A stretch of DNA of 64,000 bases from Aequorivita lipolytica (GTDB lineage Bacteria > Bacteroidota > Bacteroidia > Flavobacteriales > Flavobacteriaceae): assembly GCF_007997135.1 (NCBI RefSeq), contig NZ_VORU01000001.1:310001-374000 (forward strand), written 5' to 3'. Of the stretch, positions 3,471 through 64,000 are shown in pieces. How positions within the stretch are numbered: position 1 is the stretch's first letter; every line of letters begins with the position of its first letter. The notes beneath the pieces were generated by a model, which did no database searches, was not told the DNA's origin, and saw only the letters and a program-made list of their open reading frames with translations. A program made the position numbers and the translations under genes.

Positions 3471-6251
3471 ATGCAACAAGACATCTACAGCCTCAAAAAG
3501 ACCCTAAAAACCACAACAGAAGAACTTACATACTACAGCCTTCCAGAACTTGAAAAACAGGGGCACAGTATAAAAAAGATGCCTTTCTCAATTCGAATTC
3601 TTCTTGAAAACGCGCTTCGTAATTACGACGATTTTTCGGTGACAAAAGATCATTTGGAATCAATATTAAATTGGAAGCCTGAAAAAAGCGAAAAGGATGT
3701 GGCCTTCAAACCTGCGCGTGTTCTGATGCAAGATTTTACAGGTGTTCCGGCGGTTGTTGATATTGCATCTCTACGTTCGGAAATGGCGCGAAAGGGCGGT
3801 GATGCTTCAAAAATAAATCCATTGATTCCTGTGGATTTGGTGATAGACCATAGTGTTCAGGTAGATTATTTTGCGGCGCAATACGCCTATCAGCAAAATA
3901 TGGAAGAAGAATACAAGCGCAATAAAGAGCGCTATACTTTTTTGAAATGGGCACAGAAATCCTTTGATAATTTCAGCGTGGTGCCCCCCGGAATGGGCAT
4001 TTGCCATCAAGTGAATTTGGAATATTTTTCCAAAGGAGCTATTGCCCGAGACGGTATGGTTTTTCCCGATACGCTTGTGGGAACTGACAGCCACACCCCG
4101 ATGGTAAACGGAATTGGCGTAGTAGCCTGGGGCGTCGGCGGAATAGAAGCCGAAGCCGCAATCCTCGGCCAGCCCATTTATTTTATCAGCCCCGAAGTAA
4201 TTGGTTTAAAACTCACCGGAAAACTTCCGGTTGGAACAACGGCAACCGATTTGGTGCTTACTATTGCCAACTTGCTTCGTAAATACGGTGTGGTAGGGAA
4301 ATTTGTGGAAGTCTTCGGTCCAGGAGTAGGCCACCTTTCCGTGCCGGATAGAGCGACCATTGGAAACATGTCGCCAGAATTTGGTTGTACCGTTACCTAT
4401 TTCCCAATAGATGATAAAACGCTGGAATATATGCGAAGCAGCAACCGAAGCGAAGAACAAATTCAGTTGGTTGAAGATTATTGCAAGGCCAATATGCTAT
4501 GGCGAAAAGATGAAGACGAAATAAATTATACTGATGTTTTGGAACTGGATGTTTCAACAATTGAACCAAGCGTTGCAGGACCAAAAAGACCGCAGGATAA
4601 AATAGTTTTAAAGGACTTTAGGGATAAATTTGTGGAACTGCTGGATAGTGGTTTTGACAGAAAATACATAAAACCTTCCGAGCGCGAAGAAGCCATAACC
4701 CGTTGGAGGGAGGAGGGCGGAAGCCAGCCTGTAGACCCTCCGAAAGAACCCAGCCCAGATGTTGAAATAGAGACAAAAACCAAGAACGGCCTAAAAACGG
4801 TTTGGATTTCCAATGGCAATCAAAAATATATGCTCTCTGATGGTTCCGTAGCCATTGCGGCCATTACTTCCTGTACAAATACCTCAAACCCATTTGTAAT
4901 GATTGGCGCCGGTTTGGTTGCCAAAAAAGCACGCGAAAAAGGAATAGATGTGAAACCTTGGGTAAAAACATCGTTGGCGCCAGGATCCAAAGTAGTGACA
5001 GATTATCTTGAAAAAGCAGACCTTTTGAAAGATTTGGAAGCCTTAAAGTTCCACTTGGTTGGCTACGGCTGTACTTCCTGTATTGGGAATTCAGGACCGT
5101 TGCCTCCGCAAATTTCTAAAGCTGTTGAAGAGCAGCAACTTGTTGTAGCCTCGGTACTTTCGGGAAACCGGAATTTTGAAGCGCGAATCCATCCACAAGT
5201 AAAAATGAACTTTTTGATGTCGCCAATGCTGGTCGTTGCTTTCGCAATTGCAGGCCGGGTTGATATAGATTTGACCACGGAACCACTGACTTGCGATCAC
5301 AACGGAAAAGCTATTTTTCTAAAAGATATTTGGCCTACTGATGATGAAATTCACGAAGTGATGAAGAAAGTGCTTTCCCCAAAAGATTTTGAAAAAAATT
5401 ATGGTGAAATATTCGAAGGCAACGAAATATGGCGAAATCTGGATGTTCCGGATGATAAAATTTACAAATGGGATGATGATTCAACATATATTAAAGAAGT
5501 TCCATTTTTCCGAGATCTTTCCGATGAACCTAAAGATTTGAAGAATATTGAAGGCGCTCGAGCCCTTTTGGTTTTGGGCAATAGCATTACCACCGACCAT
5601 ATTTCCCCAGCGGGAGCGTTTTCCGAAGATTCCGCCGCAGGACAATATTTGATATCGAGAGGGGTGGAAAAGAAAAACTTCAATAGCTACGGTTCTCGCC
5701 GCGGAAATGATGAGGTTATGGTTCGAGGAACTTTTGCAAATGTTCGCATCAATAATCAGTTATCAGATAAAGAAGGCGGCTACACCACCCATCTTCCATC
5801 GGGCGAGGGAATGACGGTTTATGAAGCAGCCCAAAAATATATAAAAGATAAAACCCCACTCATAGTTTTGGCCGGAAAAGAATATGGAAGCGGCTCCTCC
5901 CGCGATTGGGCTGCCAAAGGCACCTTTCTTTTGGGCATAAAAGCCGTTTTGGCAGAAAGCTATGAACGCATCCACCGAAGCAATCTTATAATGATGGGCG
6001 TTTTGCCGTTGGAATATTTGGAAGGCGAAAGCGCAAAATCGCACGGTTTGAGCGGAAAGGAATATTTCAGCATTACAGGCATTGAAAAGGATTTAACCCC
6101 TTCAAAAAAAGTGACCGTAACTGCCAAAAACAGCGATGGTAAGGAAATTGAATTCAAGGCAATTGCAAGGCTGGATTCTCCAATTGAAGTTGCCTATTAC
6201 CAAAATGAAGGGATTTTACAATATGTATTGCGACAGTTTTTGAAAAAATAA
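3471..6251 (+). CDS. acnA: Aconitate hydratase A
   Basis: A 926-residue aconitase of the AcnA/IRP1 type, which interconverts citrate and isocitrate in the TCA cycle. The three 4Fe-4S cysteines are visible: Cys468 in SCTNTSNP, and Cys534 and Cys537 in GYGCTSCIGNSG. Other hallmarks are GTDSHTPMVNGIGVVAWGVGG near residue 205 and the swivel-domain signature KEYGSGSSRDWAAKG near residue 805. The length matches the family (about 890-930). The start MQQDIYSLKKTL is the natural one. About 170 bp of unannotated sequence precede it. The gene is monocistronic or loosely linked to the next small gene; a 7-bp tandem repeat begins 3 nt after its stop. Confidence 0.97.
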   Translation: MQQDIYSLKKTLKTTTEELTYYSLPELEKQGHSIKKMPFSIRILLENALRNYDDFSVTKDHLESILNWKPEKSEKDVAFKPARVLMQDFTGVPAVVDIASLRSEMARKGGDASKINPLIPVDLVIDHSVQVDYFAAQYAYQQNMEEEYKRNKERYTFLKWAQKSFDNFSVVPPGMGICHQVNLEYFSKGAIARDGMVFPDTLVGTDSHTPMVNGIGVVAWGVGGIEAEAAILGQPIYFISPEVIGLKLTGKLPVGTTATDLVLTIANLLRKYGVVGKFVEVFGPGVGHLSVPDRATIGNMSPEFGCTVTYFPIDDKTLEYMRSSNRSEEQIQLVEDYCKANMLWRKDEDEINYTDVLELDVSTIEPSVAGPKRPQDKIVLKDFRDKFVELLDSGFDRKYIKPSEREEAITRWREEGGSQPVDPPKEPSPDVEIETKTKNGLKTVWISNGNQKYMLSDGSVAIAAITSCTNTSNPFVMIGAGLVAKKAREKGIDVKPWVKTSLAPGSKVVTDYLEKADLLKDLEALKFHLVGYGCTSCIGNSGPLPPQISKAVEEQQLVVASVLSGNRNFEARIHPQVKMNFLMSPMLVVAFAIAGRVDIDLTTEPLTCDHNGKAIFLKDIWPTDDEIHEVMKKVLSPKDFEKNYGEIFEGNEIWRNLDVPDDKIYKWDDDSTYIKEVPFFRDLSDEPKDLKNIEGARALLVLGNSITTDHISPAGAFSEDSAAGQYLISRGVEKKNFNSYGSRRGNDEVMVRGTFANVRINNQLSDKEGGYTTHLPSGEGMTVYEAAQKYIKDKTPLIVLAGKEYGSGSSRDWAAKGTFLLGIKAVLAESYERIHRSNLIMMGVLPLEYLEGESAKSHGLSGKEYFSITGIEKDLTPSKKVTVTAKNSDGKEIEFKAIARLDSPIEVAYYQNEGILQYVLRQFLKK

Positions 6252-6253
6252 AT

Positions 6254-6283
6254 TTCATTATTCATTATTCATTATTCATTATT
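6254..6283. repeat. 7-bp tandem repeat (TTCATTA)
   Basis: Four perfect copies of TTCATTA fill the gap between the aconitase stop codon and the TTG start of the next gene. Confidence 0.85.
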
Positions 6284-6610
6284 TTGATCCTACTCGTCCG
6301 CCCAAAACTACTCCGAAAAAACTTCAACGGAATGACCCTTTGGCCTTTTGTAGTAGTAAAGCATCATTTGATGAAAGAGGACATGGTTTTCTTAAACCAC
6401 GAAAAAATTCATCTTCGCCAGCAAGTAGAATTGTTGATTGTTTTTTTCTATTTGTGGTACGGACTTGAGTTTTTATATAGGTTCATTCAGTACAGGAATC
6501 GTTATAAAGCTTACAGAAACATTTCGTTTGAAAGGGAAGCATATCATCACGAAAGCGACCAGTTCTATTTAAAAAAGCGTAAACCCTACGGGTTTTTCAA
6601 ATTTTTATAA
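6284..6610 (+). CDS. Small HExxH membrane protein
   Basis: A 108-residue protein with TTG as the only reasonable start. It contains FLNHEKIHLRQQVELLIVFFYLWYGLEFLYRFI. HEKIH fits the zinc-protease HExxH pattern and is followed directly by one hydrophobic segment (about residues 50-68). A second conserved-looking part is FEREAYHHESDQFYLKKRKPYGFF, which offers a downstream Glu or His as a possible third ligand. It resembles short flavobacterial conserved hypotheticals related to the M56/BlaR1-like minimal core. Protease activity is not shown; it could be a non-catalytic relative. It lies between two simple repeats, with no partner gene. Confidence 0.6.
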   Translation: MILLVRPKLLRKNFNGMTLWPFVVVKHHLMKEDMVFLNHEKIHLRQQVELLIVFFYLWYGLEFLYRFIQYRNRYKAYRNISFEREAYHHESDQFYLKKRKPYGFFKFL

Positions 6611-6615
6611 TTTTT

Positions 6616-6747
6616 CAACTATCAACTATCAACTATCAACTATCAACTATCAACTATCAACTATCAACTATCAACTATCAACTATCAACTATCAACTATC
6701 AACTATCAACTATCAACTATCAACTATCAACTATCAACTATCAACTA
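6616..6747. repeat. 7-bp tandem repeat array (CAACTAT, about 19 copies)
   Basis: A perfect CAACTAT array of about 132 bp fills the whole space between the stop at 6610 and the ATG at 6749. No promoter element other than the repeat itself is visible, so transcription of the next gene must start within it or read through. Confidence 0.95.
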
Positions 6748-19965: not shown

Positions 19966-21816
19966 ATGAAAAAAACAATTCTTATTGCCCTATTCTTTTG
20001 CCTTTTTATGGCTTCCCATTCACAAACTCCCGAGATAGAAAAACTCAACCAACAGATAGAAAACAATTTTCGCACAAACCCCGATTCTACAAAAATCTAT
20101 TTGATTCGTTTGCTGCGTTATTCTTCAAAATTGCACGATACGGTAGTAGGCAAAACATATAGCAATATAGGCATACAGTATAACAAATTGGCAGTTCCAG
20201 ATTCCGCGGAATTCTATATGAAAAAAGCGCTGGAATACACTGAAGAATACCCTTTGTCGCACGCCAGAATGTATATAAACCTTGCCATCAATTATCGAAT
20301 CGGTTCGCGTTATGACGAATCATTGGAAGCAGCAGAAAATGCCATCATTTGGTATAAAAAGGCAGATAACAAAGAAGGTGTGGGCATAGCTTATGGCGAA
20401 ATGGCTTCCAACTATAATTATATGATGGATAGCTCCAAAGCACTTAAATATCTCAAAAAAGCTATTGCTATTCTTACAGAAGTAGGCAATAAAAGAGATT
20501 TGTATATAGTGAAACAAAAATTGGCAAACCTATATTATAACAACGCGGACTACGCTTTTGCTAGAGATTTATACGAAGAAATTCTACCGGTATTTGCAAA
20601 AAATAAGGGCACCAATTATTATGTTACTCTTTTAAGTTATGCAGATTGTTTGATTAAACTGGAAGAAAATTATAAGGCCGCCGAGGAAGCATTAAAAGAA
20701 GTAGAAAGCGGTTTTCGGGCAATGAACCATAAAGAATATATGTGGATAGGCGTGGGCAATCTCGCGCAAGTTTATAGGGCTACCGGTAAAACACAAAAAG
20801 CACAAGAAGCATTTCAGAACGCCTATGAAGGATTATATCAGCTAGACTCCCCTCGCTTTATGGAGCTAAGCGTAAAATACTTAGACTTTTTAAACAGCCA
20901 AAAACAATACGCTAATGCCCTAAATGTAATAGACAGGGTAAAAGCCACGGCAAAATCGTCTAGGCTTAAAATGAATGCCGATAACGAAATAGCCTTCTTA
21001 AAACAGGCTGTTTCTACCTATAGCCAAGAAGGAATGGTAGAAAATTCTTTGCAATCTTTTGAGCGTATGGATTTCTTGAACGATTCACTCAACACCGTTA
21101 TCAATCAAGAGAAGTCAATGGAACTTCAGGAAGCTTATCAAAACGATCTGCAGCGCGAGAAAAATCTTGTATTGACAAAAAACAACGAACTTTTGGTTGA
21201 AAATAACAGTACAAAAGATAAAATGCTAATGCTCAGCATAGCTAGTTTTATGCTTATACTTATTATTGGGTTTTTTCTTTTCAGGTCGAATAGAAACAAG
21301 CTAAATCTGCAACGTGAATTGGTAGCAAGTTTAGAAAACTCCCAAAAGGTTTTGAAAGAGAAGAACACTTTGGAAAGTGAACTGCATCTGGAACAGGAAA
21401 GAACTTTGGCCAATAAGGAAAAGGAACTGGTACAAGTATCTTTAGAGATGTCTGATGTACAAAACAGAATATTAGATCTTATAGAAAATCGTGAAAATCC
21501 CGAAAGCTCAGAATTATTTGTCACAAAATTGACGGAGCTTCTGGGTCAAAATAATTATTGGAAATACTTTAAGGGCAAATTTGTAGAAGTACATCCTATT
21601 TTCGCCTCACAGCTTTCCCAAATGTTTCCCACTCTTTCAGATAGTGAAGTGGCTTTTTGCTGCATGTTAAAACTTCAACTTTCCACCCAGGAAATCGCTT
21701 CCCTAATGGGTATAAGTCCGGACCAGGTAGAATCGAAGAAAACAAATCTCCGAAGAAAAATAGGAATGGAAGATAACATTTTAGCCTTTGAAAAACTAAT
21801 AGACCACCTGGAGTAA
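19966..21816 (+). CDS. Membrane-anchored TPR / LuxR-type HTH regulator
   Basis: A 616-residue protein with a signal peptide (LIALFFCLFMASHSQ). A run of tetratricopeptide repeats follows (residues about 30-370; YSNIGIQYNKLAVPDSAEFYM and similar). One transmembrane helix near residues 420-438 (MLSIASFMLILIIGFFLF) and a coiled coil (about 445-500) come next. The C-terminus is a helix-turn-helix of LuxR type (FPTLSDSEVAFCCMLKLQLS, then IASLMGISPDQVESKKTNLRRKIG). The topology puts the TPR part in the periplasm and the HTH in the cytoplasm, a common Bacteroidota one-protein sensor-regulator design. The signal and target genes are unknown. About 230 bp upstream contain no gene. Confidence 0.85.
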   Translation: MKKTILIALFFCLFMASHSQTPEIEKLNQQIENNFRTNPDSTKIYLIRLLRYSSKLHDTVVGKTYSNIGIQYNKLAVPDSAEFYMKKALEYTEEYPLSHARMYINLAINYRIGSRYDESLEAAENAIIWYKKADNKEGVGIAYGEMASNYNYMMDSSKALKYLKKAIAILTEVGNKRDLYIVKQKLANLYYNNADYAFARDLYEEILPVFAKNKGTNYYVTLLSYADCLIKLEENYKAAEEALKEVESGFRAMNHKEYMWIGVGNLAQVYRATGKTQKAQEAFQNAYEGLYQLDSPRFMELSVKYLDFLNSQKQYANALNVIDRVKATAKSSRLKMNADNEIAFLKQAVSTYSQEGMVENSLQSFERMDFLNDSLNTVINQEKSMELQEAYQNDLQREKNLVLTKNNELLVENNSTKDKMLMLSIASFMLILIIGFFLFRSNRNKLNLQRELVASLENSQKVLKEKNTLESELHLEQERTLANKEKELVQVSLEMSDVQNRILDLIENRENPESSELFVTKLTELLGQNNYWKYFKGKFVEVHPIFASQLSQMFPTLSDSEVAFCCMLKLQLSTQEIASLMGISPDQVESKKTNLRRKIGMEDNILAFEKLIDHLE

Positions 21817-21893
21817 AAATTCTAAATCCCAAATCCCAAATTCCAAAACCCGAATTCCAACCAACAACCATCAACCAACAACCATCAACCATT
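21817..21893. repeat. 7-bp-based degenerate tandem repeats
   Basis: Directly after the TAA stop come AAATCCC/AAATTCC heptamers and then CAACCAT/CAACCAA heptamers, up to 17 bp before the promoter box. Confidence 0.75.
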
Positions 21894-39268: not shown

Positions 39269-39600
39269 ACAAATCCCAAATCAACGAATCCCGAATTAAC
39301 AAATCCCGAATTAACAAATCCCAAATCCCGAATTAACGAATCCCAAATCCCCGAATCAACAAATCCCAAATCAACAAATCCCGAATTAACAAATCCCAAA
39401 TCTCGAATCAACGAATCCCAAATCCCAAATCAACGAATCCCAAATCCCGAATTAACGAATCCCAAATCCCAAATCCCCGAATCAACAAATCCCAAATCAA
39501 CAAATCCCAAATCCCGAATTAACAAATCCCGAATTAACAAATCCCAAATCAACGAATCCCAAATCCCAAATTAACGAATCCCAAATCCCAAATCCCCAAT
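39269..39600. repeat. Mixed heptamer array (AAATCCC with CGAATTAA/CAAATCAA variants)
   Basis: About 330 bp built from 7-bp steps such as AAATCCC, GAATCCC, AATCAAC and AATTAAC in changing order. The register stays close to 7 bp although the unit sequence varies. Confidence 0.85.
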
Positions 39601-39723
39601 TACTAATATACAATCAAAATGACCGAAAATCACAAATCAAAAAAAAATAAGTAAAGAAGTCAGCGCACAAAAGGCTTAAGGCAATAAATTTTAATCAACA
39701 ACTAACAGATTTCCGCAACAAAA

Positions 39724-40380: not shown

Positions 40381-40437
40381 GAAAATTACTTTATTGAAAG
40401 AAAAATGACTAAATATTAAAGGGCATAAGATATATTA

Positions 40438-40545
40438 CAATTCTCAATTCTCAATTCTCAATTCTCACGTCTCACGTCTCACGTCTTGATTCTTGATTCT
40501 TGATTCTTGATTCTTGATTCTTGATTCTTGATTCTTGATTCTTGA
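40438..40545. repeat. Three successive heptamer arrays (CAATTCT, CACGTCT, TGATTCT)
   Basis: Four CAATTCT, three CACGTCT and about eight TGATTCT units follow one another without losing the 7-bp register. All units share the ending TCT. Confidence 0.92.
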
Positions 40546-50373: not shown

Positions 50374-50590
50374 ATAATTTTTTCAAAATTCTATTATTCC
50401 TGCTTTTTTAATAATAAATTTTAAATAATAAATGTAAAAGTTAAAAGTATTGGTTAAAATTATCTTTGAATTTTACACTTTGAGTTTTTATCCATTTTTC
50501 ACGTTTCACTTTATCCTTTTACATTTTGCGGTTCAATCCTGATCACTTTCATCTATTACCTCCTATATTTTGAAAATCCAAATAAAAATT

Positions 50591-57593: not shown

Positions 57594-58667
57594 GTGGCGA
57601 AATTTCATAAAATAAAAGTAAAGAACGTTTACAAAGAGACCGACGATTGTTCGGTAATCACATTTGACGTTCCTGAAGAATTGGCCGAAGAATTCCACTT
57701 CCGCCAAGGTCAACACTTAACTTTGAAAGCTGATATAAATGGCGAAGATACCCGCCGTTCCTATAGTTTGTGTTCCAGTCCGGTAGATGATGAATGGAAG
57801 GTTGCCGTAAAAGTGATTCCCGGTGGTACTTTTTCAACCTTTGTAAATTCAGAATTAAAAACGGGAGACACGCTTGAAATCATGGAACCCAGTGGAATGT
57901 TTGGGGTTGAAATTGAACCAGACAAGGAAAAAAACTATCTGTTTTTTGCGGCCGGAAGCGGAATTACACCAGTACTTTCAATGATTAAAACACATTTGGC
58001 ATTGGAGCCAAATGCAACTTGCAAGCTGTTTTATGTGAATAGAACGGCGAAATCCATTATCTTTAAAGAAGCTTTGGAACAGTTGCGCAACGAATATTTT
58101 GGAAGGCTGGAAATCTATTATTTTTTAACTAAAGAGCGCCGCGATATTGAACTTCTGAATGGTCGTTTTGATGATGAAAAGATGGAGGTTTTAACCAAAA
58201 CCTTTATCGATATACCTGATACCAGCGAAGTGTTTTTGTGCGGTCCCGAGGAAATGGTGAGTTACGTGAGCAACTATTTAATTGAAGCTGGCTTGCCAAA
58301 AGAATTGATTCATTTTGAATTGTTCGTAACAGGATTAACCGAAGAAGATAAAAAACGCGCCGAACGTTTGGCGCAGCAAAATGTTGAAGGTGTTGAAATA
58401 ACTATTGTGGATGGTGGAAAAGAGTTCCAGTTTACAATGACAAAAGATTTTGACAATATTCTCGATGCCGCCTTAGCCGCTGGTGCAGATTTGCCATTCG
58501 CCTGTAAAGGCGGCGTCTGCAGCACTTGCAAATGTCAAATTTTAGAAGGCAGTGTAGAAATGAAAGTAAATTACGCTTTGGAAGAAAAGGAAGTGGCACA
58601 AAACTTTGTGTTGAGTTGCCAAAGTGTTCCAACTTCCAAAAAAGTAAAAGTAGATTTTGATGTATGA
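57594..58667 (+). CDS. paaE: 1,2-phenylacetyl-CoA epoxidase reductase subunit PaaE
   Basis: A 357-residue reductase starting at GTG. Residues 1-100 are the FAD domain (RRSYSLCSSP), about 105-240 the NAD(P) domain (FFAAGSGITPVLSMI and VFLCGPEEMV), and about 265-357 a plant-type 2Fe-2S ferredoxin (FACKGGVCSTCKCQI and the fourth Cys in FVLSCQS). It passes electrons from NADPH to the PaaA diiron centre. It is first in the operon here, separated from paaA by a toxin-antitoxin cassette. No missing residues. Confidence 0.95.
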   Translation: MAKFHKIKVKNVYKETDDCSVITFDVPEELAEEFHFRQGQHLTLKADINGEDTRRSYSLCSSPVDDEWKVAVKVIPGGTFSTFVNSELKTGDTLEIMEPSGMFGVEIEPDKEKNYLFFAAGSGITPVLSMIKTHLALEPNATCKLFYVNRTAKSIIFKEALEQLRNEYFGRLEIYYFLTKERRDIELLNGRFDDEKMEVLTKTFIDIPDTSEVFLCGPEEMVSYVSNYLIEAGLPKELIHFELFVTGLTEEDKKRAERLAQQNVEGVEITIVDGGKEFQFTMTKDFDNILDAALAAGADLPFACKGGVCSTCKCQILEGSVEMKVNYALEEKEVAQNFVLSCQSVPTSKKVKVDFDV

Positions 58668-58675
58668 TGAATCTT

Positions 58676-58702
58676 CCTGTAAGGTTTCAAAAACCTTGTA
58701 GG
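58676..58702. repeat. Hairpin repeat downstream of paaE
   Basis: AAGGTTT and AAACCTT pair across a CAA loop, with partial outer pairing (CCT/AGG). There is no T-tract, so it is more likely a dispersed palindrome or attenuator than a full terminator. Confidence 0.55.
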
Positions 58703-58720
58703 TCTATATAAAATAATATT

Positions 58721-58957
58721 ATGAGCGAAAAAGGAGCATTAAATAGAATAACAATCAACCCAAAGATTTGCCACGGCAAGCCTGTGGTAAGAAATTTGCG
58801 TTGGCCTGTAGAGGTTATTTTAGATATGTTGAGTTCGGGGATGAGTAAGGAAGAAATCGTCTCGGATCATTCCGAACTTGAATTAGAAGATATTCACGCT
58901 TGTTTGCAATATGCCAAACTATCTGTATCGGGAAAATCAATTCTTGAAGCGAGTTAG
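58721..58957 (+). CDS. DUF433 antitoxin
   Basis: A 78-residue DUF433 protein: LNRITINPKICHGKPVVRNLRWPVEVILDMLSSGMSKEEIV, then LELEDIHACLQYAK. DUF433 proteins are DNA-binding antitoxins (VapB-like) partnered with PIN-like DUF5615 toxins. The first residues MSEKGA are the same as those of paaA (MSEK) at DNA level and appear to come from the duplicated paaA start. DUF433 proteins normally begin near LNRITINP. It abuts the decayed toxin gene, so it may no longer have a partner here. Confidence 0.85.
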   Translation: MSEKGALNRITINPKICHGKPVVRNLRWPVEVILDMLSSGMSKEEIVSDHSELELEDIHACLQYAKLSVSGKSILEAS

Positions 58958-59324
58958 ATGAAATTTTTATGTGATGTTCATATTTCTATAAAAATAGCAA
59001 AATCAATTGAAGATTCAGGCTATAAATGTGAACACATAAAGTAGAATACTAAGAAAGTGGAATACAACCGACGATGAAATAATACGTTATGTAGATAAAA
59101 ATAATCTCATTTTAATAACCAAGGATCAGGATTTTAGAAATTCATTTTTATTGAATTCGAAACCGAAGAAATTGATAAAGATTGATTTGGGAAATATCTC
59201 AAACGAAAATCTTTTGAAGATTATGAAAGAGATTCTGCCAATGATTGATAGCGTAAATAGAGGAAATATTAAATTTATGATTGAAGTTTCTGAAAACACT
59301 TCATCTGTAATAATAAAAGAATAG
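58958..59324 (+). pseudogene. Frameshifted DUF5615 (PIN-like) toxin gene
   Basis: It starts MKFLCDVHISIKIAKSIEDSGY, then stops at a TAG after GYKCEHIK. In another frame it continues RILRKWNTTDDEIIRYVDKNNLILITKDQDFRN, and on to a TAG at 59322-59324. The conserved Asp residues (CDVHIS, TTDDEII, TKDQDF) match DUF5615. One indel in the 59035-59050 region separates the two parts. It is probably inactive, leaving an orphan antitoxin. The stop is 3 bp before paaA. Confidence 0.85.
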
Positions 59325-59327
59325 GTT

Positions 59328-60284
59328 ATGAGCGAAAAAGAAGTAAAGAATCTCGAAGAAGTTTTCGAAGCCCGCATTGCGCGCGACGAAAAAATAGAGC
59401 CGAAAGATTGGATGCCAGAGAAATACCGTCAAACACATATTCGGCAAATGAGCCAGCACGCCCATTCTGAAATTGTAGGGATGCTTCCCGAAGGAAACTG
59501 GATTACCCGAGCGCCTTCATTGCGAAGAAAAGCGGCATTGCTTGCAAAAGTTCAGGATGAAGCCGGGCACGGATTATATCTGTATTCTGCTTGTGAAACT
59601 TTGGGAATTTCCAGAGATGAACTTTACGAACAATTGCATTCCGGAAAGGCAAAATATTCCTCAATATTCAATTATCCAACAGTAACTTGGGCCGATATGG
59701 GGGCAGTGGGCTGGTTGGTTGATGGCGCTGCGATTATTAATCAAGTGCCGCTTTGTAACACTTCCTTTGGGCCTTATGCTAGAGCGATGGTTCGCGTTTG
59801 TAAAGAAGAAAGTTTTCACCAACGCCAAGGATTCGAAATTATGTTAACCCTTTGCCGTGGCAGCGAAGAGCAAAAAGCAATGGCGCAAGATGCGCTAAAT
59901 CGTTGGTGGTGGCCAAGTTTGATGATGTTGGGACCAACCGATGCGGAATCAGTTCACACAGAGCAATCGATGAAATGGAAATTGAAGCGAAAAAGTAATG
60001 ACGAATTACGTCAACAGTTTATAGATCAAACAGTGCCACAAGCAGACCTTTTGGGAATTACTGTTCCCGATCCAGATTTAAAATGGAACGAGGAAACCGG
60101 ACATTACGATTTCGGCGAAATTGATTGGGACGAATTCTGGCAAGTTGTAAAAGGTCACGGTCCGTGCAACAAAGAGCGAATGAATGCCCGTGTAAATGCA
60201 TGGAATAATGGCGAATGGGTCCGTGATGCCGCAATGGCTCACGCTGAAAAAAATGCAAACAAAAAAGTAGCTAAAGCAAGTTAA
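59328..60284 (+). CDS. paaA: 1,2-phenylacetyl-CoA epoxidase subunit PaaA
   Basis: A 318-residue catalytic subunit with a ferritin-like diiron centre. ExxH-type motifs are [17 protein letters not shown] and [13 protein letters not shown]. Other family blocks are [33 protein letters not shown] and [21 protein letters not shown]. It epoxidises the aromatic ring of phenylacetyl-CoA together with PaaC, PaaB and PaaE. The start [11 protein letters not shown] lies right after the toxin-antitoxin cassette. An S23-type element starts 2 nt after its stop. Confidence 0.97.
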
Positions 60285-60286
60285 GT

Positions 60287-60721
60287 AAGTATTGAGTATT
60301 GAGAAATTAGTAATTAGAACTTTACGATTATGAATGTATTGAATGATTTAAAAGTTTGGAATAAAGCAATGGACATTGCGGTTGAAACGTATAAATTATC
60401 TTCAAAATTTCCAAAAGAAGAAAAATACGGATTGACAAGTCAAATACGGCGAAGTGCCGTTTCTGTTCCGTCAAATATCACAGAAGGTGCAGGGAGAATT
60501 ACAAAAGGTGAATTTAAAAACTTTATTAGCATTGCAAATGGTTCAGCCTATGAGCTTTTTACTCAGTTAATACTTTCACACAAACTTAATTTAGTATCTG
60601 AAAATCTGGTAGAACCTATTCTTAAAGAAGTAATAGAAGTAAAAAAAATGAATTACGCATTAATTAAATCTTTAGAGAAATAATGAATAACTCAGTACAA
60701 AATACTAACTACTCAATACTT
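60287..60721. mobile_element. S23/four-helix-bundle element 1 (paaA-paaB gap)
   Basis: 435 bp bounded by a perfect 12-bp inverted repeat, AAGTATTGAGTA at 60287-60298 and TACTCAATACTT at 60710-60721, with weaker matching further inward. It begins 2 nt after the paaA stop, ends 5 nt before the paaB ATG and encodes one four-helix-bundle protein. Confidence 0.7.
60330..60683 (+). CDS. Four-helix-bundle protein (23S rRNA intervening-sequence type), canonical subtype
   Basis: A 117-residue helical protein with the family's signature NDLKVWNKAMDIAVETYKLSSKFPKEEKYGLTSQIRRSAVSVPSNITEGAGR. The later helix is FISIANGSAYELFTQLILS. The family (S23/TIGR02436) was named from proteins encoded in intervening sequences of bacterial 23S rRNA, and relatives serve as Avd in diversity-generating retroelements. 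The molecular role is probably RNA or nucleic-acid binding but is not settled. The gene fills element 1 and is in the same direction as paa, so it is transcribed with the operon. Confidence 0.9.
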   Translation: MNVLNDLKVWNKAMDIAVETYKLSSKFPKEEKYGLTSQIRRSAVSVPSNITEGAGRITKGEFKNFISIANGSAYELFTQLILSHKLNLVSENLVEPILKEVIEVKKMNYALIKSLEK

Positions 60722-60726
60722 TGTTT

Positions 60727-61011
60727 ATGAAAAAAAACTGGCCCCTTTGGGAAATATTTGTACGCAGTAAAAACGGATTAGAGCACCGTCACTTCGGAAG
60801 CCTTCACGCTGCTGATGCCGAAATGGCAATGGAAAATGCCCGCGATGTTTACACTCGCAGAAACGAAGGCGTGAGCATTTGGGTGGTGGAAAGCAAAAAT
60901 ATTACTGCTTCAAATCCTGCAGATAATGGTGAAATGTTTGAACCTGCCCAAGATAAAGTATATCGTCATCCCACTTTTTATGATTTGCCTGACGAGGTGA
61001 AACACATGTAA
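60727..61011 (+). CDS. paaB: 1,2-phenylacetyl-CoA epoxidase subunit PaaB
   Basis: A 94-residue structural subunit from ATG 60727, just after element 1. NWPLWEIFVRSKNGLEHRHFGSLHAADAEMAMENARDVYTRR and VSIWVVESKNITAS are typical, and the C-terminus is YDLPDEVKHM. PaaB bridges PaaAC heterodimers in the epoxidase complex and has no catalytic residues. An in-frame TTG 6 bp upstream lies at the end of the element and is less likely the start. The next element begins 1 nt after its stop. Confidence 0.95.
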   Translation: MKKNWPLWEIFVRSKNGLEHRHFGSLHAADAEMAMENARDVYTRRNEGVSIWVVESKNITASNPADNGEMFEPAQDKVYRHPTFYDLPDEVKHM

Positions 61012-61012
61012 A

Positions 61013-61435
61013 TGAAATCGAAACTGAAATCGAAATCGAAATCAAAAAAAATGATTTGATGAAAAATTATAATTTAGATAGTCGTTTTGAAGATTTTGCT
61101 GCTTCAGTTGTTATTCTTTTCAAAACACAACCGAACTCATTTGCCGCAGATTATTTAGCAAAGCAACTTATAAGATCAGCCTGTTCATCTGCACTAAACT
61201 TCGGCGAATTTGAAGGAGCCGGTTCTGACAAAGATCGAGCCAACAAACTTAGAATTTCATTGAAAGAATTACGTGAGTCACTTAGAAATTTAAACATTCA
61301 AATCAATGCAGGACTTATTGATATCAATGCAGTTACTTCAGTAAAAAATGAAAATGACGAACTTATTATAATCGTCGTTACACTTATTAAAAAATATAAC
61401 TAATAAATTCGATTTCGATTTCAGTTTCGATTTCA
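61013..61435. mobile_element. S23/four-helix-bundle element 2 (paaB-paaC gap)
   Basis: 423 bp bounded by a perfect 28-bp inverted repeat at 61013-61040 and 61408-61435 (built from GAAATCG steps). It begins 1 nt after the paaB stop and ends 10 nt before the paaC ATG. In mRNA the ends would form a long stem with the gene in the loop. Confidence 0.8.
61059..61403 (+). CDS. Four-helix-bundle protein, divergent subtype
   Basis: A 114-residue protein from ATG 61059. The helical pattern is FEDFAASVVILFKTQPNSFAADYLAKQLIRSACSSALNFGEFEGAGSDKDR. The RSACSSALNFGEFEGA part aligns with RSAVSVPSNITEGA of the canonical family. LKELRESLRNLNIQINAGLID is the third helix. The sequence is closer to the broken gene in element 3 than to the one in element 1. 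It is complete, in the direction of the operon and enclosed by the 28-bp inverted repeat. The function is unknown. Confidence 0.85.
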   Translation: MKNYNLDSRFEDFAASVVILFKTQPNSFAADYLAKQLIRSACSSALNFGEFEGAGSDKDRANKLRISLKELRESLRNLNIQINAGLIDINAVTSVKNENDELIIIVVTLIKKYN

Positions 61436-61445
61436 AACTTTTAAA

Positions 61446-62195
61446 ATGAGCAATCTATACAACTACATCCTAACAATCGCCGACAACTCCCTAATCCTAG
61501 CGCAGCGTTTGGGTGAACTTTGCGGTCACGGCCCCAGTTTGGAAACCGATATTGCGCTAACCAATATCTCTTTGGATTTGCTCGGTCAAACACGAAGTTA
61601 TTATCAATATGCCGCCAAGTTAAAAGGTGAAGACAAGACCGAAGACGACATCGCTTTCCTAAGAATTGAAAGGGAATACAAGAATTGTTTGCTTGTTGAA
61701 CAACCAAACACACATTTTGGATATACAATTGGGCGACAATTTTTATTTGATGTCTATCATTTAATGTTGATGGAAAAATTGCAAAACAGTCCGGATGAAA
61801 CACTTTCAGCAATCGCAAAAAAAGGAATAAAGGAAGTAAGCTACCACAAACGATTTTCAAGCGATTGGGTAAAACGTTTGGGCGACGGAACTGAGGAAAG
61901 TAACCAAAAAATGCAAGAAGCAATAAATGATCTCTGGCGTTTTACGGATGAACTTTTCTTTATGACGGAAGCTGAAAAGGCTATGGCAAAAGAAGGAATA
62001 GGCATTGATGTTTCAACCTTCAAAGAAAAATATTACAAAGAAGTTTCTGAAGTTTTAAAAGAAGCCACGCTCACTGTTCCCGAAAATAAATATTTCACTA
62101 AAGGTGGAAAAGAAGGAGTTCACAGCGAACATATGGGCTATATTTTGGCCGATTTGCAATATATGCAGCGTACTTATCCCAATATGCAGTGGTAG
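61446..62195 (+). CDS. paaC: 1,2-phenylacetyl-CoA epoxidase subunit PaaC
   Basis: A 249-residue ferritin-like structural partner of PaaA. SLILAQRLGELCGHGPSLETDIALTNISLDLLGQTRSYYQYAA is the N-terminal signature. YHKRFSSDWVKRLGDGTEESNQKMQEAINDLW and HSEHMGYILADLQYMQRTYP complete the fold. PaaC lacks a functional diiron site in this family and is needed for complex stability and CoA binding. Element 3 begins at the next base after its stop codon. Confidence 0.96.
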   Translation: MSNLYNYILTIADNSLILAQRLGELCGHGPSLETDIALTNISLDLLGQTRSYYQYAAKLKGEDKTEDDIAFLRIEREYKNCLLVEQPNTHFGYTIGRQFLFDVYHLMLMEKLQNSPDETLSAIAKKGIKEVSYHKRFSSDWVKRLGDGTEESNQKMQEAINDLWRFTDELFFMTEAEKAMAKEGIGIDVSTFKEKYYKEVSEVLKEATLTVPENKYFTKGGKEGVHSEHMGYILADLQYMQRTYPNMQW

Positions 62196-62625
62196 GCAAT
62201 GCTCAATGTTCAACTAACAATTTTCAATGTTCAATTAAAAAATGAATTATGGAAAAGAAATTTGATTTAGAAGATAGACTTATTGGCTTTGCAATCTTGT
62301 GCATTAAAATTTTTACTAAAGTGGAATATAATTATGCGATAGACCATTTGTCTAAACAGCTTATCCGTTCAGCAACAGGAGCTGCACTAAATTATGGAGA
62401 AGTGCAAGGAGCAGAATCTGCAAAGGATTTTACCCATAAAATGGGAATAGTTTTAAAAGAATTGAAAGAATCGAGAGTAAATCTTAAAATCTAAATTGGA
62501 GCAGAACTTATAAAGGAAATCGAAAAAGCTGAAAAATGCTTAAAAGAGTGCGAAGAATTGACTGCAATTTTCGCGAAAAGCATTCAAACCGCAAAAGCTA
62601 AGAAAAATTGAAAATTGAGTATTGC
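62196..62625. mobile_element. S23/four-helix-bundle element 3 (paaC-paaD gap)
   Basis: 430 bp with an imperfect inverted repeat: GCAATGCTCAATGTTCAACT at 62196-62215 against the complement of 62606-62625, 17 of 20 matching. It starts at the base after the paaC stop and ends 3 nt before the paaD start. Its gene is broken. Confidence 0.65.
62249..62611 (+). pseudogene. Four-helix-bundle gene with an internal stop
   Basis: It starts MEKKFDLEDRLIGFAILCIK and carries SKQLIRSATGAALNYGEVQGAESAKDF, like the element-2 protein. A TAA at 62492-62494 sits where the relative has Gln in NLNIQINAG (here NLKI-stop-IGAE), so a single C-to-T change explains it. The frame then continues open for 38 codons (IGAELIKEIEKAEKCLKECEEL and on to AKAKKN) to a TGA at 62609-62611, inside the right inverted repeat. 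It is recently inactivated. Confidence 0.85.
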
Positions 62626-62628
62626 TAA

Positions 62629-63129
62629 TTGAAAATTGAAAATTTAAATATCGATAGTTCTTTGGTCGAAACATTATCATCCGTTTCAGACCCGGAAATT
62701 CCCGTGCTTACTGTTTTGGATTTGGGCGTAATTCGCGAAGCAATTGAAAAAGATGGAATAATTTATATAAAATTAACGCCAACCTATTCAGGTTGCCCAG
62801 CAATGGACGTTATCGGCGACGATTTAAAAAAGGCTTTTTCAGAAATAGGGAAGCAAGCAAAAGTCGAATTGGTACTTTCGCCAGCGTGGAGCAGTGATTG
62901 GATTTCCGAAGAAGGTCTGCAAAAAATGGAAGAATACGGCATTGCGCGTCCGCTTTCAGAATCAAACGATATTGATGTTTTATTAAATAGTAAAAAACTC
63001 GTAAAATGTCCACAATGCCAAAGCACAAACACGCATTTGGTAAGTCAATTTGGTTCCACGGCCTGTAAAGCACTTTTTAAATGCGACGATTGCCTAGAAC
63101 CTTTTGATTATTTTAAATGTCTTAAATAG
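62629..63129 (+). CDS. paaD: Phenylacetate pathway Fe-S assembly factor PaaD
   Basis: A 166-residue DUF59/MIP18 protein: SLVETLSSVSDPEIPVLTVLDLGVI, TPTYSGCPAMDVIGDDL and WSSDWISEEGLQKMEEYGIA. The C-terminal module has paired cysteines (CPQCQSTNTHLVSQFGSTACKALFKCDDC). PaaD is thought to help mature the PaaE cluster or the epoxidase. No ATG is available: a TAA lies directly upstream, and the best start is TTG at 62629, at the outer edge of element 3. The native start may have been replaced when the element inserted. Confidence 0.92.
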   Translation: MKIENLNIDSSLVETLSSVSDPEIPVLTVLDLGVIREAIEKDGIIYIKLTPTYSGCPAMDVIGDDLKKAFSEIGKQAKVELVLSPAWSSDWISEEGLQKMEEYGIARPLSESNDIDVLLNSKKLVKCPQCQSTNTHLVSQFGSTACKALFKCDDCLEPFDYFKCLK

Positions 63130-63190
63130 ACGTTAGATTTTAGATATGAGATATGAGAAAGCTTAAAATTAACTTTAAACTCCCAATGTT

Positions 63191-63249
63191 CCTTCCCCTT
63201 TTTCAGGGGAAGTTGGCCCCGACTTTTTCGTTGGGTACGGAAGGGGTAA
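63191..63249. repeat. CCTTCCCCTTTTTCA ... CGGAAGGGGTA repeat, short member
   Basis: It shares both ends with the tandem pair at 56717-56911 but has a different, shorter interior with its own hairpins (CTTCCCC/GGGGAAG). It lies between paaD and the next gene. Confidence 0.7.
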
Positions 63250-63265
63250 AGCTAAATAAATACAT

Positions 63266-64000
63266 ATGACTATAACCACCCATATAGAAAACAAAATAGC
63301 AACCTTAACCTTGAACCGGCCCGAGGTTTTTAATAGTTTCAATCGCGAAATGGCATTGTTGCTTCAAAAAGAACTTGATGCCTGTGAAAAAAACCCTGAA
63401 GTTCGGGCAATAGTAATCACTGGCAGTGGAAAAGCTTTTTGCGCCGGACAGGATTTAAAAGAGGTTACTTCCCCAGATTTGAATCCGGGTTTTAAAAAAA
63501 TCCTTGAAGAACATTACAATCCAATCATTTCTCGAATCCGAAGTATTGAAAAACCTGTAATTGGCGCCATTAATGGCGTAGCCGCCGGAGCGGGAGCAAA
63601 TATTGCTTTAGCTTGTGATGTTGTAATTGCATCGGAAAACGCAAGTTTTATTCAAGCCTTCAGTAAAATAGGATTGATTCCTGACAGTGCTGGAACGTTC
63701 TTTTTGCCGCGACTTATTGGTTTTCAAAAAGCTTCGGCTTTGATGATGCTGGGCGATAAAGTTTCTGCCGAAGAAGCCGAAAAACTGGGAATGGTTTACA
63801 AAGTAGTTTCTTCAGAAAATTTTTCTGAAGAAGTAAATATCATTGCAAACACATTGGCAAATATGCCCACAAAGGCATTGGGTTTGACAAAACGATTATT
63901 GAATAATTCGATGAACAATTCTTTGGAAGAACAATTAAATTTGGAAAGCAAACTTCAAATAGAATCTGCCCAAAGCGAAGATTATGCAGAAGGTGTTGAT
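63266..64000 (+). CDS. paaG: Enoyl-CoA hydratase/isomerase PaaG (3' end cut by window)
   Basis: 245 residues are visible, with no stop before the window ends. The crotonase signature is SFNREMALLLQKELDACEK, AFCAGQDLKEVTSPD, and GVAAGAGANIALACDVVIAS with the oxyanion-hole glycines. FSKIGLIPDSAGTFFLPRLIG with the Asp, and the operon position after paaD, point to 2-(1,2-epoxy-1,2-dihydrophenyl)acetyl-CoA isomerase. That enzyme converts the ring epoxide to an oxepin. Related crotonases such as PaaF cannot be fully excluded. Confidence 0.85.
   Translation, partial: MTITTHIENKIATLTLNRPEVFNSFNREMALLLQKELDACEKNPEVRAIVITGSGKAFCAGQDLKEVTSPDLNPGFKKILEEHYNPIISRIRSIEKPVIGAINGVAAGAGANIALACDVVIASENASFIQAFSKIGLIPDSAGTFFLPRLIGFQKASALMMLGDKVSAEEAEKLGMVYKVVSSENFSEEVNIIANTLANMPTKALGLTKRLLNNSMNNSLEEQLNLESKLQIESAQSEDYAEGVD

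Follow-up and report, generated by a model that had tools for sequence, protein, structure and literature searches.

S23 Genes Flanked by Repeat Arms Occupy Successive Junctions of the paa Operon in Aequorivita lipolytica

A 64,000-nt stretch of the Aequorivita lipolytica genome (NZ_VORU01000001.1, positions 310,001 to 374,000; hereafter, the window) contains the genes paaA, paaB, paaC and paaD, and each of the three gaps between them is filled by an element consisting of an S23 gene flanked by inverted arms of degenerate tandem repeats, with 7-nt units (6-nt in element 2). Pfam searches upheld the identities of the four paa genes and assigned the three interposed genes to PF05635 (23S_rRNA_IVP, the S23/IVP family; E values for elements 1, 2 and 3 of 1.6e-38, 2.9e-10 and 7.8e-07), a family stated to be without known function (PMC4990558). 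The Coxiella intervening sequence (IVS) of rRNA also has S23, a 28-bp stem and heptamers, so that the paa elements look like its mRNA-located relatives. We consider it probable (about 0.6) that they belong to a family of IVS-type elements residing in mRNA instead of rRNA, by the mechanism proposed in the Discussion.

Results

Anatomy of the Three paa Elements

All features described lie on the plus strand; S23 is on the sense strand of the host operon in all three elements and would be transcribed with it. Element 1 follows paaA (59328-60284; PF05138, E 9.2e-97) and comprises a 5′ arm of AGTATTG-type heptads (60287-60317, with a lag-7 array at 60282-60316), an intact S23 gene of 117 amino acids (60330-60683) and a 3′ arm of CTCAATA-type units (60691-60721); the inverted repeat is 31 nt long and 77% complementary. 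Between paaB (60727-61011; PF06243, E 4.7e-44) and paaC (61446-62195; PF05138, E 5.4e-95), element 2 carries an S23 gene of 114 amino acids (61059-61403) enclosed by a perfect 28-nt inverted repeat (100% complementary), the 5′ arm of which (61013-61040) is built of the hexads GAAATC/GAAACT and pairs with a 3′ arm at 61408-61435. Element 3 begins at 62196, right after the paaC stop codon. Its CAATGTT-type 5′ heptads (62198-62236) and 3′ arm (62606-62644, lag-7 array 62603-62637) give a 39-nt inverted repeat, 79% complementary, and paaD follows (62629-63129; PF23451 and PF01883). The S23 gene of element 3 is split by an in-frame TAA (62492-62494). The first piece (62249-62494, 81 amino acids), to which the E value of 7.8e-07 applies, is alone below the curated PF05635 cut-off, and the second, in the same frame up to TGA 62609-62611 (62495-62611), has no Pfam match alone. 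A whole-genome search that reads through this one TAA scores above the cut-off, and the match continues to C14:372569 (window 62569), within the second piece.

The original prediction, made from the letters of the window, had placed three S23-type elements with terminal inverted repeats in these gaps, and both the placement and the repeats proved right. So did the distances of 2, 1 and 0 nt from the upstream stop codons, which end at 60284, 61011 and 62195. The 3′ ends, put at 3-10 nt before the next start codons (60727, 61446, 62629), lie 5, 10 and 3 nt ahead of them; with its longer 3′ arm, however, element 3 extends across the TTG start codon of paaD. Every element does contain an S23-type gene, as predicted; the third gene is broken. 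That the genes are not close copies is borne out by the 22% identity between the S23 proteins of elements 1 and 2. The count of three S23 genes is correct for the gaps of the window but misses two further PF05635 genes of the same operon just past its end at 374000 (C14:375433 and 377356 of this genome, G000). Five of the 21 S23 genes of the genome hence lie within 7.4 kb. The heptad or hexad nature of the arms had been overlooked. The elements encode nothing but PF05635, the Pfam search finding no transposase inside them, and a search of positions 58500-64000 against Rfam, allowing E up to 1, gave no match.

S23 Genes Follow the Operon Strand and Begin at Stop Codons

PF05635 occurs in all 28 Aequorivita genomes, in 5-21 copies per genome (21 in G000), and S23/IVP in 157 of 198 sampled Bacteroidota genomes, G000 included. 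Loci were compared in three samples: 70 Aequorivita loci, comprising all 21 of G000 and 49 (covering 51 match rows) from four closed genomes; S23 loci on cyanobacterial plasmids, taken from 12 of the 37 plasmid records that gave a match; and the 29 best-scoring S23 loci across Bacteroidota.

Two genes on the S23 strand flank 65 of the 70 Aequorivita loci, and two opposite-strand genes flank none. A script scored 64 of these, the other being L205, where an antisense open reading frame called by the script stood in place of paaB. Three of the remaining loci lie between converging genes, one lies between diverging genes and one has no downstream gene. Counted by distinct site, 44 of 49 are co-directional and 0 opposite. 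Within paa gaps that hold S23, the gene points forward in 40 of 40 cases, with none on the minus strand; these 40, among 50 gaps of 330-640 nt, are 28 gaps in the 28 genomes and 12 in named loci, two of the latter belonging to a record shared with the set of 28. S23 was co-directional with its neighbours at 10 of 12 loci on cyanobacterial plasmids (2 opposite) and at 25 of 29 Bacteroidota loci (1 opposite). Such a strand rule can arise from an RNA step or from a need of S23 for expression via the host transcript.

The end of an open reading frame had been proposed as the target place. In agreement, the 5′ arm begins no more than 12 nt from the upstream stop codon at 46/59 Aequorivita and 7/9 cyanobacterial loci (those with an arm match score of at least 12, 68 of the 76 with a usable same-strand upstream gene), compared with 7.9% expected from the co-directional intergenic bases of the window. 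Selection may account for part of this pattern, since a tight operon offers no harmless site other than the junction. A genome-wide lack of both inverted repeats and stop-codon bias at S23 genes had been named as evidence against the proposal; at other S23 loci, we found both.

The host genes are functionally unrelated: paa, cas6-cas4, cas10-cmr3 and plasmid genes. On cyanobacterial plasmids (L216, L217 and L220), S23 lies in operon direction, its neighbours being cas6 and cas4 in two species and, in the third, cas10 and a Cmr3-family gene.

Junctions Are Found Empty, with S23-free Hairpins, or with Different S23 Genes

Among the 28 Aequorivita genomes, 3 have a paaA-paaB gap of no more than 31 nt and 16 have one of 32-329 nt; 8 carry S23 there, and 1 carries a different long insert. 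The corresponding numbers are 1, 9, 14 and 3 at paaB-paaC, with the gap missing in 1 genome, and 0, 20, 6 and 0 at paaC-paaD, with 2 missing. A set of 80 named loci, which overlaps the 28 genomes in at least one record (L114), adds S23 in 3 paaA-paaB, 8 paaB-paaC and 1 paaC-paaD gaps. Many of the short gaps are heptad hairpins without S23, and others are REP-like (repetitive extragenic palindromic) hairpins, as judged by eye. In the empty paaA-paaB sites, a single nucleotide separates TAA and ATG (TAA-A-ATG in two genomes, TAA-G-ATG in one); the first codons of paaB also differ between empty and filled sites. The original prediction would have been contradicted by relatives sharing the same genes at the same places, without inverted repeats, back to a distant ancestor; what was seen instead is this empty site in 3 of 28 genomes.

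The paaB-paaC junction holds several S23 subfamilies within Aequorivita, the main two being 25-27% identical, which agrees with the occupation of the junctions by different elements. In one sister pair, L071 retains an apparent left arm of the element of L063, which reads as a loss.

S23 proteins are under purifying selection and behave like working proteins. The median ratio of nonsynonymous to synonymous substitution rates (dN/dS) is 0.04 for the paaA-paaB orthologues (8 genomes), 0.08 for a second set (8 genomes) and 0.06 for a third (6 genomes), broken frames having been truncated at the stop; the median dS of the same sets is 0.70, 1.23 and 1.59, and the higher values approach saturation, which makes the ratios rough. 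Because of this selection, and because the S23 gene of element 1 is common to 8 of the 28 genomes, not all S23 copies are recent, and recent movement is not supported. Decay is also seen: stops interrupt the S23 frames of 8 of the 21 copies in G000.

The selection and the shared copy would also be expected if S23 genes were ordinary, useful operon genes, S23 being a host regulator and the hairpins serving transcript stability or translational coupling, with no need for mobility. Ordinary genes are co-directional too, as seen in 30 of 32 triples with co-directional outer genes in the window, and the roles proposed for the short tandemly repeated repetitive (STRR) hairpins of cyanobacteria are precisely to stabilise transcripts or to couple translation (PMC2670836). 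Such genes would not be expected to occupy otherwise equal junctions so patchily, to leave a 1-nt empty site, to be represented by differing subfamilies at one junction, to stand among neighbours as unrelated as paa, cas and plasmid genes, or to carry stops in so many frames. We regard this explanation as unlikely, though it survives better than the other alternatives.

Arms Are Tandem Repeats that Change Together

Heptad units form a hairpin between genes in elements 1 and 3, and 6-bp units do so in element 2. In 65-nt arms of the Aequorivita sample, the best self-match lag is 7 for 43/70 upstream and 36/70 downstream arms (79/140), compared with 207/2000 random window stretches and 93/700 shuffled arms. 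The same anatomy is present in Cyanobacteria, where lag 7 is best in 9/12 upstream and 8/12 downstream plasmid arms (17/24). Across Bacteroidota, lag 7 is best for 30 of the 58 arms and lag 8 for 17 (29 loci; one arm, at L231, has a masked stretch). The arms also have a polarity: G exceeds C in the 5′ arm of 41/47 Aequorivita elements with both neighbours near enough (the reverse in 4), 7/7 cyanobacterial and 23/24 Bacteroidota elements (the reverse in 0 of either).

The two arms of an element match each other. At most, not all, of the 21 loci of G000, the best arm match beats the best of 15 shuffles. The median arm match score in Aequorivita is 15.75 within an element versus 10.0 for arms of different elements, and own arms score above the 95th percentile of such mismatched pairs at 36/70 loci and above the 99th at 20/70. 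On the cyanobacterial plasmids, 4/12 own scores exceed the 95th percentile (23.4), the control being weak in this group, where the elements share unit types. When diverged pairs at shared sites were compared, own arms outmatched arms swapped between genomes in 46/56 pairs, with one tie; in short gaps, they did so in 93/116, 25/32 and 58/77 pairs, which are non-independent. The stem is retained in orthologue alignments, and predicted stems also occur in the short paa gaps of relatives. The predicted folds of elements 1, 2 and 3 contain 17, 27 and 18 end-joining pairs, the shuffle means being 5.0, 5.4 and 4.5 and the maxima 29, 29 and 30.

Repeat units vary freely from element to element, and subfamilies have no terminal sequence in common. 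Unit sharing is raised only among close S23 proteins (similarity > 0.5).

Heptad Arrays Increase with S23 Copy Number

In 20-kb samples, the stricter threshold gave 19 lag-7 arrays, spread over 10 of the 20 S23-bearing genomes with usable data, and 0 in 19 genomes without S23; the looser threshold gave 36 versus 2 (six contigs that were short or masked are not included; intergenic bases were 80,426 and 55,935). In whole Bacteroidota genomes, heptad arrays were scored as four TGAG or four GATT words spaced by a period of 7, and they are present in 99/157 S23-bearing and 9/41 S23-lacking genomes (Fisher 2.8e-6, ignoring kinship and G+C). The proportion of genomes with arrays climbs with S23 copy number, from 9/41 (no copy) through 9/28 (1), 14/29 (2-3), 28/46 (4-6) and 20/24 (7-9) to 28/30 (at least 10). 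Within one family (f16), arrays are present in 15/32 genomes with S23 and 1/11 without. A period-10 pattern does not track S23 (3/157 with, 3/41 without). The reversed word pattern, used as a control and without cross-tabulation with S23, matched whole genomes about equally often; hence heptads with other words exist, and TGAG and GATT are not special.

The window itself has intergenic heptad arrays without a nearby S23 gene at 6242-6276, 6600-6739 (a long ATCAACT array), 21810-21883, 39569-39603, 40424-40528 and 50414-50448. Another array without an S23 gene (63123-63157) overlaps the paaD stop codon.

Over-represented bacterial heptamers have been attributed to polymerase slippage (PMC4692102), and slippage in DNA followed by hairpin correction could produce heptad arms in AT-rich gaps, with S23 nearby since both would be tolerated only at junctions. 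The free variation of units and the many arrays without S23 nearby are in keeping with this. The period on both sides of S23 in two phyla, the arm G/C polarity that tracks S23 direction and the rise of heptad arrays (but not of the period-10 pattern) with S23 copy number are not, and we consider slippage alone a quite improbable account.

Transposases and Reverse Transcriptases

Terminal inverted repeats, sporadic presence and a near-precise empty site are also what a DNA transposon mobilised by a transposase elsewhere in the genome would present. A small control of 36 transposase loci of the genus gave 15 in the same and 4 in opposite orientation, 13 in other gaps and 4 unclassifiable. The S23 genes lack this freedom of orientation (65:0 versus 15:4, Fisher 0.002), and a transposon would not be expected to lack a terminal sequence common to its subfamilies. 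Of the two transposase families sought, rve and Y1_Tnp, the S23-rich genome G000 yields a single match each, that to rve being below the cut-off. Mobilisation by a transposase therefore seems to us very improbable. Still less probable is a retroelement akin to diversity-generating retroelements, with S23 as the Avd-like partner of a reverse transcriptase in trans: S23 and Avd are considered homologous (PMC10053308) and the strand bias is consistent with an RNA step, but PF00078, the only reverse transcriptase family sought, is absent from G000, G006 and G007 (21, 21 and 17 S23 copies), the three most S23-rich of six genomes tested, while matching in the other three (5, 6 and 15 copies), and a reverse transcriptase partner was rejected on this ground.

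Other Features of the paa Locus

In other Flavobacteriaceae (L122, L152, L179 and L180), the paaA-paaB gap carries a small gene. That of L180 (4635-4949) encodes a GIY-YIG domain protein (PF01541, E 5.8e-17), and the inserts of the other three are similar by eye; this looks like a second kind of junction element. The paaC-paaD gaps of L058, L066 and L075 and the paaD-paaG gaps of L081 and L064 contain REP-like hairpins such as TTCCCGCGAAGGCGGGAATC, plus the repeat GTCACCCTGAGCGCAGTCGAAGGGTC; in relatives, these hairpins and this repeat stand a few nucleotides from stop codons. In the paaA-paaB gap of L072, L067, L077 and L070, the last unit of a short hairpin (ATGTCT) apparently provides the paaB start codon. 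Upstream of paaA in the window, a DUF433 gene (PF04255, 58721-58957) is followed by a short frame (58958-59044), which stops after 28 codons and resembles the beginning of DUF5615 (E 6.2e-4, below the cut-off). Together they look like a two-gene unit whose second gene is broken.

Discussion

The observation that S23 elements fill the three paa gaps is confirmed, and its interpretation is partly supported, the IVS-like character of the elements being among the parts that stand. The closest likeness is to the rRNA IVS of Coxiella burnetii, which is 428 nt long and has S23p on the sense strand, a 28-bp stem interrupted by one mismatch and a bulge, and tandem GACAGAT heptamers; it is cleaved by RNase III without ligation (PMC4990558). 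The paa elements share with it the sense-strand S23, a length of about 430 nt, a stem of about 28 bp joining the ends, heptameric repeats rich in purines ahead of the S23 frame (hexads in element 2) and frames decaying in some strains. They differ from the rRNA IVS in lying between protein genes of an operon and not in helix 9, 25 or 45 of 23S rRNA, in having many copies with different units, and in the purifying selection on S23 at three junctions; their excision is putative.

Repeats of similar design have been described apart from S23. Cyanobacterial STRR hairpins, usually of 7-bp repeats, stand between hupS and hupL (PMC2670836), and the P6b hairpin of the tRNALeu intron consists of degenerate heptanucleotide repeats (PMC3488679). 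Both resemble the present arms in forming hairpins from 7-bp repeats (degenerate in P6b), hupS-hupL being likewise a pair of operon genes; unlike these hairpins as described, the arms here often enclose an S23 gene.

One strain with reported repeats, 'A. sublithincola DSM 14238', we take to be an Aequorivita. TAACTGA heptamers occur in Beggiatoaceae, Cyanobacteria and Bacteroidetes, that strain included, and for them "no mechanism is evident" (PMC4679880); GGGNATC heptamers are known from Xanthomonas and Nostoc, in a report that finds heptameric repeats over-represented in many bacteria (PMC4692102). Like the arrays reported here, both are mostly intergenic, with many copies close to start codons; unlike the S23 elements, they have been reported as direct repeats or as sequences forming G-quadruplexes, with no carrier named (PMC4679880, PMC4692102).

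In cas loci, 23S_rRNA_IVP genes often accompany Cas4 or Cas6, or stand between Cmr2 and Cmr3, and are listed with a cas-associated function (PMC3936711). Comparable cases of PF05635 between cas genes were seen here on plasmids, and we read them as another operon-junction insertion. Diversity-generating retroelements with Avd differ in that G000 has no RVT_1 match. S23 elements with heptad arms in operon gaps were not found among the literature matches listed, most subscription papers being outside coverage, and the passages covered did not join S23 with STRR, P6b, TAACTGA or GGGNATC repeats outside rRNA.

Several results weigh against an IVS-type family residing in mRNA. All three elements lie between paa genes, outside 16S/23S rRNA, unlike the rRNA IVS, and their co-directionality is shared with ordinary genes (see above). 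Taken singly, 31/140 Aequorivita arms pass the 99th percentile of the lag-7 control, so many arrays must be worn or absent; the 5′ arm of element 3 (CAATGTT type) violates the G-over-C rule, and the arms of element 2 are hexads. The fold of element 1 is slightly better than its shuffles (-81.1 versus -74.9, sd 6.4; 30 mononucleotide shuffles), and single shuffles reached up to 29 or 30 end-joining pairs. Compensatory stem changes are few (0, 1, 1, 2, 0 and 3 pairs in six orthologue alignments), and covariation was accordingly rejected as evidence proving an RNA stem. The repeat unit of the arms is only weakly linked to S23 phylogeny (Mantel-type rho 0.064; 29/500 permutations as high), so S23 seems not to read a fixed sequence, and sequence-specific recognition of the arms by S23 was rejected. 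Finally, heptad arrays are present in 9/41 genomes without S23, both S23-lacking genomes of the own family carry GATT arrays, and some of the arrays counted are themselves S23 arms.

The unit of these mRNA-located IVS-type elements is a hairpin with arms of degenerate 7-nt tandem repeats (one subfamily has 6-nt units, some other Bacteroidota have units of 7 to 8 nt) and a loop with or without an S23 (PF05635) gene. It is inserted between consecutive operon genes, mostly to within a few nucleotides of the upstream stop codon and the downstream start, with S23 nearly always operon-directed. This anatomy is what the comparisons show; the steps that follow are our proposal. The element would be transcribed together with the operon, and its arms would pair into a long stem. 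RNase III could cut this stem, parting the cistrons; such excision is plausible. Re-joining of the transcript, one of the outcomes suggested originally, is not expected, as the fragments of rRNA with an IVS stay unligated (PMC4990558). S23 made from the operon transcript may act on the heptad arms as a pentamer, like its solved relative 2gsc (XCC0516 of Xanthomonas campestris), which is described as a homopentamer (PMC4990558). Its action would keep both arms matched and would let S23-free hairpins persist in trans.

A wider proposal is possible, and we put it forward tentatively: S23 may be the missing trans-acting partner of bacterial heptanucleotide repeats. On this view, the rRNA IVS with S23p, the STRR and heptamer hairpins of Cyanobacteria and Bacteroidota, and the IVP genes of cas operons, so far described separately, might represent a single selfish family acting at the RNA level, which copies or corrects heptad hairpins into operon junctions; its S23 pentamer would recognise the repeat period rather than a particular sequence.

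If operon junctions are indeed the proper place of S23 elements, and if these are linked with heptad hairpins, what S23 does becomes testable, through RNase III, hairpin binding and the separation of cistrons. There would be a candidate agent behind the puzzling heptamer repeats of bacteria, and the IVP genes found in operons, those of cas included, would not need to be counted as parts of the pathways in which they lie.

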